From: an uncultured bacterium
GTDB lineage: Bacteria; Patescibacteriota; Gracilibacteria; Absconditabacterales; Absconditicoccaceae
DNA length: 54,861 bases
Reading direction: 5' to 3'
Assembly (NCBI GenBank): GCA_903904875.1
Contig: CAIVEC010000015.1
Coordinates: forward strand, 1-54,861
Part shown: piece after piece, positions 9,814 to 54,698 of the stretch
How the letters are laid out: every line of letters starts with the position of its first letter
How positions within the stretch are numbered: position 1 is the first letter of the stretch
Notes under the pieces: generated by a model
What the model was told of the DNA's origin: nothing
What the model saw: only the letters and a program-made list of their open reading frames with translations
The model's database searches: none
Made by a program: the position numbers and the translations under genes

Positions 9814-10206
9814 ATGATTGCAATTCCAAAATTACTTTTGTTGCGGACGGTGTTCTTTTTCCTTGTATGGGCTCTGCCTATGATCATTAATCCAAAGTTC
9901 AGTGTCGGGCTGATAGAGAAACTTACGAAGAATACGGAACTTTCATTCTTGTTAGGATTCATTCTATTGGTTATCGCGTTCTTGTATCTCTTGGTATATG
10001 TTAATTTGGATGGCACCTGGTATATGATGTTCTCTATCATCGGATATCTTACCTTGCTCAAATGAGCAGTTATGATGTCCCTGCCAAGGCATGCAGCTAA
10101 AAACGCAAAAAGAATGTATGGTACGGCTTCTATGACAAGGATTATGTGAATACTAACGCTTGTTGTAGCTGCATTTATTCTCCGAGCTACGCTTGTTAAA
10201 TTCTAA
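9814..10206 (+). CDS. Integral membrane protein, tandem paralog 1 (130 aa)
   Basis: MIAIPKLLLLRTVFFFLVWALPMIINPKF...FSIIGYLTLLKGAVM; 131 codons. Confidence 0.75.
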
Positions 10207-10238
10207 TATCGTAGTTTTATTTTCTTATATATTTTCTC

Positions 10239-10631
10239 ATGTTTGCTTTTCCACAACTCCTTTTACTTCGGACAGCGTTCTTTATCCTGGCGTTCTGATT
10301 GCCGATGATTTTCGCTCCAAAGGTTTTCAAGTCTATCATAGAAAAAACTCTGAAAAATTTCGATATTGTCAGAGTCCGGGCGTTCATCACTATGCTCATC
10401 TGATTCCTGTTTTTGAGCGTCTATCAGAAATTCAATAATGGACGAGCTATGACATTTTCTATCTTCGGATATCTCTCATTGCTCAAGGGATTGATATTGC
10501 TCCGATTCCCAACTTGTGGACATGCTAAGTATAAACGGTTCTATTCAACCGTTACTGCTTCTGTTATCTTAGGTATCATCGTCGTACTTTTCGCTGCATT
10601 CCTTACCTGGATTGCATTGATAAAAATCTAA
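10239..10631 (+). CDS. Integral membrane protein, tandem paralog 2 (130 aa)
   Basis: MFAFPQLLLLRTAFFILAFGLPMIFAPKVF...FLSVYQKFNNGRAMTFSIFGYLSLLKGL. Confidence 0.78.
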
Positions 10632-10661
10632 TACTATTTTTTATCTGTTACTCTATATTCC

Positions 10662-11054
10662 ATGTTCACGTTTCCACAACTGCTCCTGCTTTTTTGGGCA
10701 TTAATCATCCTGGCTATGTGATTGCCGCTGCTTTTTGTCCCAAAAAAATTCAAACCAATCTTGGAAAGGATTCTGAAAAACTCTGATATCGTGAGAGTCT
10801 GGGCATTTCTTATGATGCTCATCTGATTCCTGTTTTTGAGTGTCTATCAGAAATTCGATAACGGATGGGCGATGATATTCCCTATTTTCGGATATATCGA
10901 ATTGCTCAAATGATTGACAACATTTCGATTCCCATCATGGGGACGGACAAAGTATAAATGGTTCTTCTCTAAACCTGTGCAATCATTCATCATGGGTATC
11001 CTGGTTATCCTTGTTGCAGTGTTTATTGCTTGGGTAGCGTTGATGAAGATCTAA
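10662..11054 (+). CDS. Integral membrane protein, tandem paralog 3 (130 aa)
   Basis: MFTFPQLLLLFWALIILAMGLPLLFVPKKF...FLSVYQKFDNGWAMIFPIFGYIELLKGL. Confidence 0.78.
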
Positions 11055-14000: not shown

Positions 14001-17000
14001 ATGATCAATTTTTTAAAGAAGAATAAAGTGGCGATATTGGTGTTTACCGTATTTATCTGAATATACGGAGCATTCAGCGTTTTTACGATACCCAAAGAGG
14101 CGCAGCCATCGGTGAATATCCCGTACTACTATATCAGCTTCAGTTATTTGGGCGCTGATCCTTCTTCGATAGAGGAGCAAGTGGTCATCCCTTTGGAACA
14201 GAAAATAAAATCGGTCACGAATATAGATAAGATCACCTCATCGTGCTATTATAATTTCGGAACCATACTTGTGCAATTCACTACCGCCAAAAGCGATGTC
14301 GATGCGACCAATGATCTGAAAGCCGCTATAGATCAGGTGTATCCGACGCTCCCAACTGACGTGAATTATCCTACGGTCAAGAAAATATCCGTCAGCGATA
14401 CGCCTGTGTATTCGTTTTCTGTCGCAGGGAATGTCCCTACGCAAGTCATGTATGACAGACTCAAATCATTGGAAGATCAGCTCAAGTCTGTTGCGTGAGT
14501 TTCCGACATCAACATCATCGGAAAACCTGTCAAAGAAGTTAAGCTTACCTTTGATGCACAGAAGCTGGCCGTCTTGGATATGGATTTCTCTATGATAGTC
14601 GGTCAGCTGAAAAGCGCTTTCGTAAAGTTTCCGGTAGATAAGAAAGACGTTGCCGGCAAATTATATTCATTCGAAATAACCAACTATGAAACCAATCTGA
14701 CGTGATTGATTGAACAGCTCAAAGATTATGACCTGCTTGATGTCGCTGGCAAGTCCATCAAACTCAGAGATATCGCAAGCGTATATATAGGATATAAGCA
14801 ACAGGATAAGAAATCGTTCGTCATCACCAATATCAATGGTAGTGATACGCAGAACGCGCTTTCCTTCCAGATAAAAAAATCTCCTGGCTATAGCCTGGAC
14901 ACCTTCGTAGATGAACTGAAAGCTGTTGTCACTGCATATGCTAAAACCACTCCTGATCTCAACTATACAGAGACCTTGTCTCAGAAAGAAAGCATCCAAA
15001 GGACCTATGGATTATTCATGGAAAATTTCCGAGAAACAGCGCTTTTGGTATTTTGTATCATTCTTCTATTTCTCGGATGGAGATCTTCATGGTTGATCAT
15101 GCTGTCGTTCCTTATCGTGTATTTAGGCAATTTCATCTATCTCAAATCTATAGGATATAGTTTCAATAATATTGTCTCGTTCGCCTTAATCCTGGTGCTG
15201 TGAATCATGATAGATAACCTGATTGTGATCACGCAGTGAATTGTCGTCGGCCTGCAAAAGTTTGCAGGCAATATCCGGGAAGCAATAAAAGATTCCATTC
15301 ATAACTACGGCAAAGCGATATTTTTCTGAACATTGACGACGATTGTCATCTTCATTCCGCTCTATTTTTGATTGACGTGAATCATGGGCGAGTATATCAA
15401 AGCGATGCCGATAACCATCATCTCCAATCTGGCTATTTCGCTGGTTGTGACCATGTTCATGCTACCCGTGCTTGCTTTGTTCTTCTTCAAATCATGACAA
15501 GTATATGTCTCTCCGCCATCGTTGTCGTTTCTGGAGAAGACCGGCGTGAAATTCGCTGATCGATGGCATCGTAGGAATCAAACGAGATGGTGATCCAGAT
15601 GAATTATTTTCTGATTCCTTGCATTCTTTGTCTGAGCTTTATCGCTCATACCTTTGTGAATAGTCAAATTCTCGTTCATGGGAAATATAGATTCCAATAA
15701 TGTTTGGATGAATCTCAAATATGCGCCGTGAATCAGTATGGCTGACAATCAGGAATATACTTCTAAAATCGCACATGCGACGTTGAAATATTTCCAGACC
15801 GTCATGTCCGGCGTGGTCAAGGATATCACTATCGATCTCGGACAATGATATTCTTTGAAATGAGCATGAGGCGCAGGCAATAATGTAAGCTCATTCACCA
15901 TGAGGCTTGTCGATACCACGAAAAGGAACATCAAATCTTTCCAAATAGTCGAGAAGATGCAGAAGGAATTACTGGTCGCCTTGGAACAGAAATATGCTTT
16001 TCTGCAGGATGCCTCCATCTTCACGCTCCAGGCATGAGCCGGTTCGGGAAAACCTATAAGCTTCAATATCGTCGGTGACGATTATCAGAAAATCAATGAC
16101 TACGTCCAAGAGATATTACCTTATATCAAAGCCATTCCTGGCGTTTATAATGTTGGAATATCCATCGAATATACGAACGGAAAAATCGTCTATGTCCTTG
16201 ATGAGAATAAAGCTAAATCGCTTGGCATCACGAGTATGTCTTCCGTTTCATCGTTGATCGCACTCAAAAACGCAGGATATGAATCCAATGGCGTCAAGAT
16301 AAAAGAATTCTCCGATTTCGGCAGCGATACGTTATCGTTGAATGCATTCTTATCGACTGACTTGTCGGTAGAACAAACGAAAATAGGAAAAGTCACCTTG
16401 GACCAGATCATCAGCAAAAAAGAATTACAGCCGGAGATCAATGCGATTACGAGAGAAGACGGTAAAAGATGTATATCCATTCAGGCCGACAAGACTAATA
16501 GTGCAGTGTTGACTGATATCACTACGGCGATTGATAAGGTCATCAAAAATCATCCTTTGCCTGATGGATTACAGAAGACAACTTGATGAGATGCAGCCTC
16601 GCTGACACAAGCTTCGCAGGATTTAAGCAAAGCCATGCTTATCTGACTCATCCTTATGATCCTCGTGTTGATCATCCAATTCAATAATATCAAATATTCC
16701 ATCGTCATCGTTTCCAGCGTATTCTTGACGATAGGATGAACTATTGTCATTCTCGCTATCACCTGATATGATCTTACGTTTCCAGCGATGATAGGAATCT
16801 TCTGAGTCATGGGAGTCTGAGTGAATCAGGCATTGATCCATATCGAGGATTTTAAATATTACTATCAGGAGAAATGACTTTCCGTCGTAGATAGTTTCCA
16901 GCAGAGCATCGCGGAAAGATTCATTCCGATCTTTCTGACGAAATTGACGACCATCATCTGATTGCTTATTTTGGCCATGAAAGACGAATTATTCTGATCA

Positions 17001-17114
17001 ATGGCGATAGGATTCATCTGATGATTGATTGTATCGTTCTTCATCACGTTATTGTATATCCCTTCACTGATGAATTTGGTGTCTAGAAAGTATTACAGAC
17101 AAAAAGAAGAATAA
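14001..17114 (+). CDS. RND superfamily efflux transporter (AcrB/HAE1-like), 1037 aa
   Basis: MINFLKKNKVAILVFTVFIGIYGAFSVFTIPKEAQPSVNIPYYYISFSYLGADPSSIEEQVVIPLEQKI...GIMIDNLIVITQ; two TM/porter repeats; open only with TGA=Gly. Confidence 0.9.
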
Positions 17115-38416: not shown

Positions 38417-38440
38417 TCTAAAATATTATTTTATAATAAA

Positions 38441-38472
38441 AAAATTCCCGGAAAATACTCCGGGAATTTTAA
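38441..38472. terminator. Bidirectional terminator AAAAAATTCCCGG-aaaatact-CCGGGAATTTT
   Basis: Long perfect inverted repeat between convergent genes. Confidence 0.85.
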
Positions 38473-38491: not shown

Positions 38492-39598
38492 TTATTTTTC
38501 CAAAATGATTGCTGCGATGTCAGGGAAATGCTCTGTATAATCGCCGAAGATTTGAATGCCGAAGGCATCGGTAGGAAGCTTATCCCAAGTGATCTTTTCT
38601 TTCCATCCTGCGCCGGAATATGATCCGAAACTCATAGGCGATGAGTGTATTTCGGTAAATGATGCCCATGGACGAATCAGTTTGTCCTTTACTTCCATCG
38701 GTTCTGCATGCATGTAGTCATGTTTTAAATGCGGCACTATGCATATAGGGAAATCACCAGCGATTCCTCCGCCCATTTGTAAGAAGGCAATGGATGAATC
38801 CTTGGTATTATCCACATACCATTCTGCTAAATGATGCATGTAAGCAAAGCCATGTTTGATGATTGACGGATTGATAGGATTTTTGAGTTTATACTTGGAG
38901 AGTAATGGGTGATTACCACTATAACATGCATGAGTAAAAATATTTCCCATCGTGCTATCTTCTGCTCCTGGTACATAGACAGGAATTTTGTATTTCCATG
39001 CTTGATATAACCAACAATCATCTTCGTTTGCTTTCAGATCTTTCTTTATCAGATTGTGCTCTAATAACTGGAAGAAAAATTCATGCCATAAATAACTCTT
39101 GTTTTCTTTTTGAGATTTACGCCACAATTTTTCCAGTTTAGGTAGGATTTTTCTTACGGACTCATCTTCAGGTAAAAACGTATCAGTAATCCGTCGTAAG
39201 CCTGCCTCACGGAGTTCGTTTTCTTCTTTTGGAGTAAGCTCCATGTAGCCGGGAATATTTGCATAGTGACGATGCGCTACATAACGATACAAGCTTTCTT
39301 CCATATTGGCTCCTGTTACAGATATTCCATGGAGTTTGCCTGCGCGTATAAGTTCACTAATAACTATTCCCATTTCAAATGAAGAACCAGCGCCTCCCAT
39401 GGAAAGAAATAGTTTTCCACCTCTTTTTAAGAATTTTCTTAACCATAATCCAGCATCTATAGTTTTTCCACCATTACAATGGCGTTTAGTGTAAACCAAA
39501 AAGTTAGTTATAGGTGTATTTGGATCTGGCTTGTAATTTCTTTCTCCTTGTACGATTTTTTTTTGTAAATCGGGAGATAATTTTTTAATTTTTGTCAT
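38492..39598 (-). CDS. Deoxyhypusine synthase-family protein
   Basis: GKTIDAGLWLRKFLKRGGKLFLSMGGAGSSFEMGIVISELIRAGKLHGISVTGANMEESLYRYVAH...SIIKHGFAYMHHLAEWY; uninterrupted 368 aa, no UGA. Confidence 0.8.
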   Translation of the reverse strand: MTKIKKLSPDLQKKIVQGERNYKPDPNTPITNFLVYTKRHCNGGKTIDAGLWLRKFLKRGGKLFLSMGGAGSSFEMGIVISELIRAGKLHGISVTGANMEESLYRYVAHRHYANIPGYMELTPKEENELREAGLRRITDTFLPEDESVRKILPKLEKLWRKSQKENKSYLWHEFFFQLLEHNLIKKDLKANEDDCWLYQAWKYKIPVYVPGAEDSTMGNIFTHACYSGNHPLLSKYKLKNPINPSIIKHGFAYMHHLAEWYVDNTKDSSIAFLQMGGGIAGDFPICIVPHLKHDYMHAEPMEVKDKLIRPWASFTEIHSSPMSFGSYSGAGWKEKITWDKLPTDAFGIQIFGDYTEHFPDIAAIILEK

Positions 39599-43476: not shown

Positions 43477-43500
43477 AAAATATTTTGTTTATAATAAAAA

Positions 43501-43528
43501 AAGGAATCGAAATACTCGATTCCTGTCC
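43501..43528. terminator. Intrinsic terminator AGGAATCG-aaatact-CGATTCCT
   Basis: 8-bp perfect stem flanked by A/T runs. Confidence 0.75.
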
Positions 43529-53826: not shown

Positions 53827-53852
53827 ATCCCCGGAATACTCGGGGATGTAAT
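53827..53852. terminator. Terminator-like hairpin ATCCCCGG-aatact-CGGGGAT
   Basis: Inverted repeat flanked by A-run and T-rich sequence. Confidence 0.65.
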
Positions 53853-53878: not shown

Positions 53879-54310
53879 TTATTCCAACATACCTGCTGTT
53901 TTCATTGCTTGGGTGAATCCGGAAAATTCTTTTTTGAGTATCTGTAATTTATTGTCTCGTTTTTCCTTTTCTTTTTTCACCATTTTCTTCATTTTTTCGA
54001 TTTTTTTCTGATTTATGAAGTACAATGCTTCTAAAGTGGTTTTACGTCCTCGCATATTTCTCCATCTACCTTTTTCTATCTGTTCTTTATTTATTTTGAC
54101 CATTTCGCAATCCGTTAACCAACAAATATCCTCGTCAAAATTTTTAACGTAATGAGATCCAGTCCAACCTGAGAGTATTTGGAATTTTCCACTGTTTTTT
54201 TCGTGAACTTTAACAATTTCTCGGATACCGTTAGAGACGAACTGACTCCCGCTTACTTCTACCAAAAAGATCTGATTGTCTTTTAGGTCTGAAAAATTTA
54301 TTTTTTTCAT
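53879..54310 (-). CDS. Hypothetical Lys-rich protein (143 aa)
   Basis: MKKINFSDLKDNQIFLVEVSGSQFVSNGIREIVKVHEKNSGKFQILSGWTGSHYVKNF... Confidence 0.55.
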   Translation of the reverse strand: MKKINFSDLKDNQIFLVEVSGSQFVSNGIREIVKVHEKNSGKFQILSGWTGSHYVKNFDEDICWLTDCEMVKINKEQIEKGRWRNMRGRKTTLEALYFINQKKIEKMKKMVKKEKEKRDNKLQILKKEFSGFTQAMKTAGMLE

Positions 54311-54439
54311 ATTTTTGTTTTTTTATGACTTTTATTTTGATTTATACTATACATATTATTCCCATTTTTGCAAGATTAAAAAAACACTCATGGACATACC
54401 ATCAGTGCTTTCCCCTTTTTATTGTATTTTATTTGTACA

Positions 54440-54664
54440 CAATTTTTTAACGAGAGAGCATCAGGATAGGCTTCATACAGCCTACAATAATAATCAACAG
54501 GGCTGACTATTGATGTAGATTTTATATAGGGCCCTGATACTCCCTCTGGGTCCATCTGATCTTATTGGGTATAAGATCTAGATAGTGTTTAAGGAGGAAA
54601 TACCTCCAACATAATTACCTATACCAAGGATGTGTAGTGAAGCCTTACGATAAGTAACTATGTT
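54440..54664 (-). ncRNA. Candidate structured ncRNA C
   Basis: Minus-strand promoter TTGCAT-16nt-TATAAT (54671-54698); +1-proximal AACATAGTTAC pairs with GTAATTATGTT; hairpins GGAGG/CCTCC, GATCTTAT/ATAAGATC, TAGGCT/AGCCTA. Confidence 0.5.
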
Positions 54665-54670
54665 ATCTTA

Positions 54671-54698
54671 ATTATACCCTGGATTTGTGGATATGCAA
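54671..54698 (-). promoter_or_regulatory. Sigma70-like promoter TTGCAT-16nt-TATAAT
   Basis: Perfect -10 on minus strand, same spacing as the promoters at 8180 and 8702. Confidence 0.65.

Follow-up and report, generated by a model that had tools for sequence, protein, structure and literature searches.

A family-restricted, single-copy structured noncoding RNA gene in Absconditabacteria (SR1)-type bacteria, with a predicted two-state 3' domain

The locus and the described structured RNAs

OLE and other orphan bacterial ncRNAs are large, conserved, structured and noncoding; they were found by comparative genomics and covariation and are presumed to work in ribonucleoproteins. The 6S RNAs (RF00013) follow a rod plan of closing stem, bubble and apical stem, and their bubble strands have been described as collapsing on each other (PMC8876501). 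Ms1 of Actinobacteria is a 6S-like RNA of ~300 nt with extra hairpins (PMC9130861), and SRP subunits are reported lost in many CPR bacteria (PMC8080830). The locus studied here lies near the end of a 54,861-nt stretch (the window), which is contig C15 of a 0.97-Mb draft genome (G000; GCA_903904875.1). Its long ORFs open only with TGA read as glycine (genetic code 25), as in the 1037-aa ORF at 14001-17114, whose product is an AcrB-type transporter. The ncRNA at this locus is real, autonomous, confined to one bacterial family and uncatalogued in Rfam 15.

At the gathering score, no Rfam 15 family matched the window or 21 homologous loci, in line with the original prediction that the RNA might be novel. 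Relaxed matches to SNORA61, P8 and mt-tmRNA (E 0.27-10) lay far below the cut-off and were taken as chance, and a literature search found no description of the ncRNA. RNase P RNA (RF00010) had no match at the ncRNA and was found elsewhere in the same genome (G000:C12:18589-18922); the two genes lie within about 0.3-5 kb of each other only in the genus's eight further members, G009 and G010. Neither did tmRNA (RF00023) match the ncRNA, and ARAGORN found none in the window. Full-length tmRNA above the cut-off was present, at a place other than the ncRNA, in 29 of 37 genomes; the window's own draft genome gave a weak tRNA-like match only. SRP RNA (RF00169, RF01854) was absent from the ncRNA and from all genomes searched (0/37 and 0/21). 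The Ffh M domain (PF02978) was likewise found in none of 17 genomes (G000-G010 and G036-G041, including genomes 90-100% complete) compared with 14/14 controls, in line with the reported losses (PMC8080830). A very divergent SRP RNA, RNase P RNA or tmRNA might be suspected from the single copy, the housekeeping-like distribution and the want of any other SRP RNA. With RNase P RNA and tmRNA encoded as separate genes in relatives, the Ffh M domain missing and no SRP domain IV signature among the conserved letters, we consider that identity extremely improbable.

The 6S model did not match the window, either at the gathering score or with E relaxed to 10; it likewise had no match at E <= 0.05 among eight diverse ncRNA copies and none in the window's genus. 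A few relatives carry 6S-like genes just under the Rfam cut-off. In two of them (G009 and G012) such a gene (41-44 bits) shares the genome with the ncRNA, and our covariance model R2, built from 29 ncRNA copies, does not recognise the 6S-like genes. Thus the ncRNA is probably none of RNase P RNA, tmRNA, SRP RNA or 6S RNA, as the first two lie elsewhere, SRP is seemingly absent and weak 6S matches coexist with it.

There are nevertheless likenesses. Like 6S RNA, the ncRNA is an autonomous gene whose predicted fold has, in most genera, a closing stem, a bubble with a 3'-side hairpin, an apical stem and a collapsible bubble. Unlike 6S RNA, it has three extra 5' hairpin domains, no covariance-model match and a 5' bubble strand that is free of length constraint and absent in one genus. 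A 6S-type mode of action may apply, whilst the covariance test does not place the RNA in the 6S family. With Ms1 it shares a length of about 300 nt, lineage specificity and a 6S-like domain with extra hairpins (PMC9130861), but Ms1 belongs to another phylum and a sequence relation is not evident. OLE-type RNAs are alike in kind only, as large covarying noncoding RNAs presumed to be RNP components; the present RNA differs in its structure, its lack of an Rfam match and its confinement to one Absconditabacteria-type family.

Predicted gene boundaries and conserved fold

The elements of the predicted gene are collected in Table 1. The original prediction had placed a TATAAT and a TTGCAT box with a 16-nt spacer on the minus strand, and both are present. 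The TATAAT is perfect and recurs in relatives: a -10 box matching at 5/6 positions or more precedes the start of H1 by 5-10 nt, in nearly all cases by 6-7, in 33 of 36 family copies, compared with a mean of 6.9 and a maximum of 13 in shuffles. The -35 box is weak, being readable as TTTGCA or TTGCAT, although a TTTGCA or similar TTG-type hexamer stands at this place in most of the 36 copies. The predicted 5' end lies at the AACATAG A. Intrinsic terminators were found within 120 nt downstream in 28/36 copies (shuffles 0.35, maximum 2). Within the originally proposed interval of 54440-54698, the conserved structured core, with four helical domains, spans 54452-54664 (213 nt); the transcript probably continues beyond that interval to a terminator that had been missed. 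We infer that transcription starts from a sigma-70-type promoter and ends at this terminator.

Table 1. Features of the ncRNA gene in the window, from promoter to terminator
Feature	Position	Strand	Description and basis
-35-like hexamer TTGCAT	54693..54698	-	16-nt spacer; TTTGCA at 17 nt equally readable
-10 box TATAAT	54671..54676	-	predicted 5' end (A at 54664) 6 nt downstream
Predicted whole transcript	54378..54664	-	~287 nt; promoter spacing, terminator and conserved core
H1	54608..54664	-	15-bp outer stem, inner stem AAGG/CCUU, loop with conserved CACUACACA; fold, covariation, conserved loop letters
H2	54593..54607	-	hairpin GGAGG-UAUUU-CCUCC; fold, covariation
H3	54552..54585	-	hairpin CUAUCUAGAUCUUA-UACCCAA-...AGAUGG with conserved UACC loop; fold, covariation, conserved letters
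H4	54452..54546	-	closing stem, asymmetric bubble, apical stem-loop, 3'-side hairpin
H4, state A (predicted)	54467..54484	-	3'-side hairpin UAGGCU-GUAUGA-AGCCUA, loop consensus UGUAUGAA; covariation
H4, state B (predicted)	54514..54529	-	5' bubble strand CUAUAUAAAAUCUACA; could pair with the 3'-side hairpin along its 5' half and loop
Intrinsic terminator	54378..54407	-	CACTGATGG-TATGT-CCATGAGTG, then T7

Intrinsic terminators of the window's genome favour a GTAT(T) loop, for example at 54385-54407 and 53827-53847 and at about 43500-43524, 38440-38470 and 1430-1455 (all minus strand). The same loop occurs in H2 and after most ncRNA homologues. The GUAUU loop common to H2 and the terminator was set aside as not specific, several other terminators in the window having GTAT loops. 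Downstream of five copies (L089, L090, L092, L093 and L097) a recurrent element, ATTGAGACGC ... GTCGAAATTATACCGAC, follows or replaces the terminator; none is present in the window.

The claim of a structured RNA was borne out by a conserved structure with strong covariation among family homologues. Folding alone gave a minimum free energy of -89.7 kcal/mol compared with a shuffled mean of -54.1 (z -8.1), and -106.7 kcal/mol with the terminator included (z -8.8 against shuffled). The helices proposed from the single sequence are all present: AACATAGTTAC, starting at 54664, pairs with GTAATTATGTT with one G-U as the sole non-Watson-Crick pair, and the GGAGG/CCTCC, GATCTTAT/ATAAGATC and TAGGCT/AGCCTA hairpins correspond to H2, to a part of H3 and to the 3'-side hairpin of H4. 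The minus-strand assignment also holds, R2 scoring 204.6 bits on minus and 23.8 on plus; antisense matches of both covariance models mirror the same helices and were discarded.

In the 29-sequence alignment, 94.7% of cells at the 54 consensus pairs are paired and double-sided changes occur at 51 of these pairs, including all 14 of H3; the stem of H2 appears in relatives as GGUGG/CCACC and GGAUG/CAUCC. The covariation score over the 29 sequences was 0.681, compared with 0.228 after shuffling and no more than 0.105 when partners were slid. These counts take related sequences as independent, and the slid and cluster-permutation controls argue against kinship as their cause. Since the alignment had been fitted to the model, an unbiased scan of all column pairs was run, and every pair in its top 13 ranks belongs to the proposed structure. 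In a structure-free MAFFT alignment of the first 15 copies, 27/54 pairs were already double-changed. The scan did not clearly favour a pseudoknot. A kissing contact that would join the loops of H1 (UUCACUACA) and H4 (UGUAUGAA) suits the copy in the window, but on visual inspection relatives do not keep it.

That no good ORF fits the locus was right as to conserved coding, though a 59-aa code-25 ORF overlaps the 3' half. Within the genus, the length of this stretch varies by amounts not divisible by 3, so this ORF is not conserved as coding sequence.

The most strongly conserved letters of the ncRNA lie in its loops, a pattern consistent with protein or RNA contacts. One rival reading is a trans-acting, base-pairing regulatory sRNA whose unpaired loops (CACUACACA, UACCC) seed on mRNAs. 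The intergenic gene with its own promoter and terminator, and the short, C-rich, strongly conserved single-stranded loops, would suit such an sRNA. However, most pairing sRNAs do not need a whole ~215-nt fold of four covarying domains to be conserved, and we regard this explanation as unlikely.

Distribution and gene neighbourhood

BLASTN found the ncRNA in every other genome of the genus (eight) and in six further family members, and the resulting 15 copies were used to build covariance model R1 (214 positions, 54 pairs). Each of the genus's nine genomes has one copy. With R1 a full-length copy was recovered in 31 of the family's 49 genomes (12 of its 22 genera), single apart from antisense echoes, and R2 added five more genomes at E <= 4e-6 (G012, G020, G029, G034 and G065). 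Among 288 genomes drawn from the class, none outside the family matched R1; among 380 genomes of the phylum, R2 matched only the window's own. Filters in these large-group searches were strict, so weak outliers may be missed. A weak R2 match in G060 (3.6e-4, L123) was rejected, as on reading it lacks the family's H2 hairpin, promoter and terminator. In viral contigs, a scan with GGAGGTATTTCCTCC returned 52 unspecific matches, which were discarded, and a longer family-specific motif had no match. In these searches the ncRNA is restricted to one family of Absconditabacteria (SR1)-type bacteria, in which it is probably kept vertically.

In about a quarter of the family's genomes the ncRNA is absent or undetected, and essentiality is for that reason not proven. 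The gene is nonetheless retained, once per genome, in at least 15 genera with genomes of only about 1 Mb. Retention in such genomes, where even SRP seems lost, implies an important task.

The neighbours of the ncRNA change from genus to genus. In the window's genus it is recJ; other genera have gltX, RNase HII, rsmH or M48 peptidase-like genes, all names other than RecJ coming from reading translations and not from a domain search. Promoter, terminator and ncRNA stay constant while the flanking genes vary. A cis-acting leader, that is, a riboswitch or attenuator of the downstream gene, could be suggested by the terminator at the end of the ncRNA and by the same-strand ORF that follows it in the window (53879-54310). 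That ORF (143 aa) has no Pfam match, the downstream gene is not conserved and gltX is convergent in G022, G026 and G028. Since its neighbours differ or converge, the ncRNA is an autonomous gene and no leader; gene context largely refutes a leader, and we hold it to be very improbable. The 143-aa ORF lies between the ncRNA and recJ on the minus strand, and in G002 a different ORF, of 141 aa, occupies the same place.

The predicted two-state 3' domain and a proposed role

H4 can be folded in two ways. In state A the 3' side of the bubble forms its own hairpin, with double changes at all six pairs, and the distance from the end of its loop to the closing stem is 6-9 nt in all 29 sequences. In state B the 5' bubble strand would instead pair with the 5' half and loop of this hairpin, and copies such as L100 and L111 allow 12-16 continuous pairs. 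Across 13 representatives the state-B duplex averaged -7.6 kcal/mol within a sequence and -5.0 when strands were swapped between genera, an observed energy reached by 0 of 20000 permutations. With the 3' half of the 3'-side hairpin as control strand, p was 0.39. The two folds are predicted to be mutually exclusive, and each is backed by covariation. In genus g19 (L102, L104 and L108) the 5' bubble strand is deleted and state A alone is left, so two-state behaviour is not universal. Over the 29 sequences this strand measures 2 to 32 nt, and G007 alone (L095, 1501-1816) carries within it an insertion of ~100 nt with inverted repeats.

Structured bacterial ncRNAs of this size and with such covariation are uncommon and usually prove to belong to core machines. 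For this ncRNA the analysis showed a conserved structure, promoter and terminator signals of its own, a single copy in each genome that carries it and independence of neighbours. We infer that it works as the RNA component of a ribonucleoprotein. The reading we favour, as the likeliest, is an RNA that binds protein and has a 3' domain able to switch; taken as a whole, an autonomous single-copy gene vertically retained in one family and encoding such an RNA is in our judgement the probable account. In this model the covarying helices would serve as scaffold and the invariant loops CACUACACA (H1), UACC (H3) and UGUAUGAA (H4) as protein contacts. The 3' domain would toggle between a hairpin state and a continuous-rod state, and the switch in H4 could link the binding of protein to a step of regulation.

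One candidate among the possible partners is RNA polymerase, since closing stem, bubble and apical stem are arranged in the 3' domain as in 6S and Ms1 and the bubble can likewise collapse. The plan is seen in H4 of most genera, with an asymmetric bubble; g19 lacks its 5' strand. Taken further, the ncRNA could be a 6S/Ms1-like RNA in which H4, by mimicry of an open promoter, holds RNA polymerase and the UAU(G/A)A loop acts as the -10-like element of the 3' bubble. The 3'-side hairpin between closing and apical stems, bubble strands able to collapse as described for 6S (PMC8876501), the similar size and extra hairpins of Ms1 (PMC9130861) and a genus without a 6S match all fit this idea. However, RF00013 matched no copy searched, the ncRNA coexists with 6S-like genes to which R2 is blind, and a 5' bubble strand so variable, interrupted in G007 and missing in g19, is hard to fit into a polymerase active site. 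We therefore regard it as unlikely, to about the same degree as a pairing sRNA. Less likely again is a broader scheme in which a lineage-specific two-state RNA replaces or supplements 6S in Absconditabacteria. Its 3' domain would alternate between two forms, a promoter-like rod and an open form with the hairpin, and would thereby capture and free RNA polymerase, or some other global machine, in a bacterium that depends on a host and has a genome of ~1 Mb.

For the favoured protein-binding RNA, the alignment, the covariance models and the predicted two states of the 3' domain offer an immediate starting point for probing and pull-down. The locus also indicates that RNA families absent from Rfam can persist in reduced CPR genomes.

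Two further features of the window were noted. Three consecutive ORFs at 9814-11054 (+), each exactly 130 aa under code 25, are possibly tandem paralogues and have no Pfam match above the cut-off. The ORF at 38492-39598 (-) contains a deoxyhypusine synthase domain (PF01916, 86.8 bits), which is unusual for a bacterial genome of ~1 Mb.
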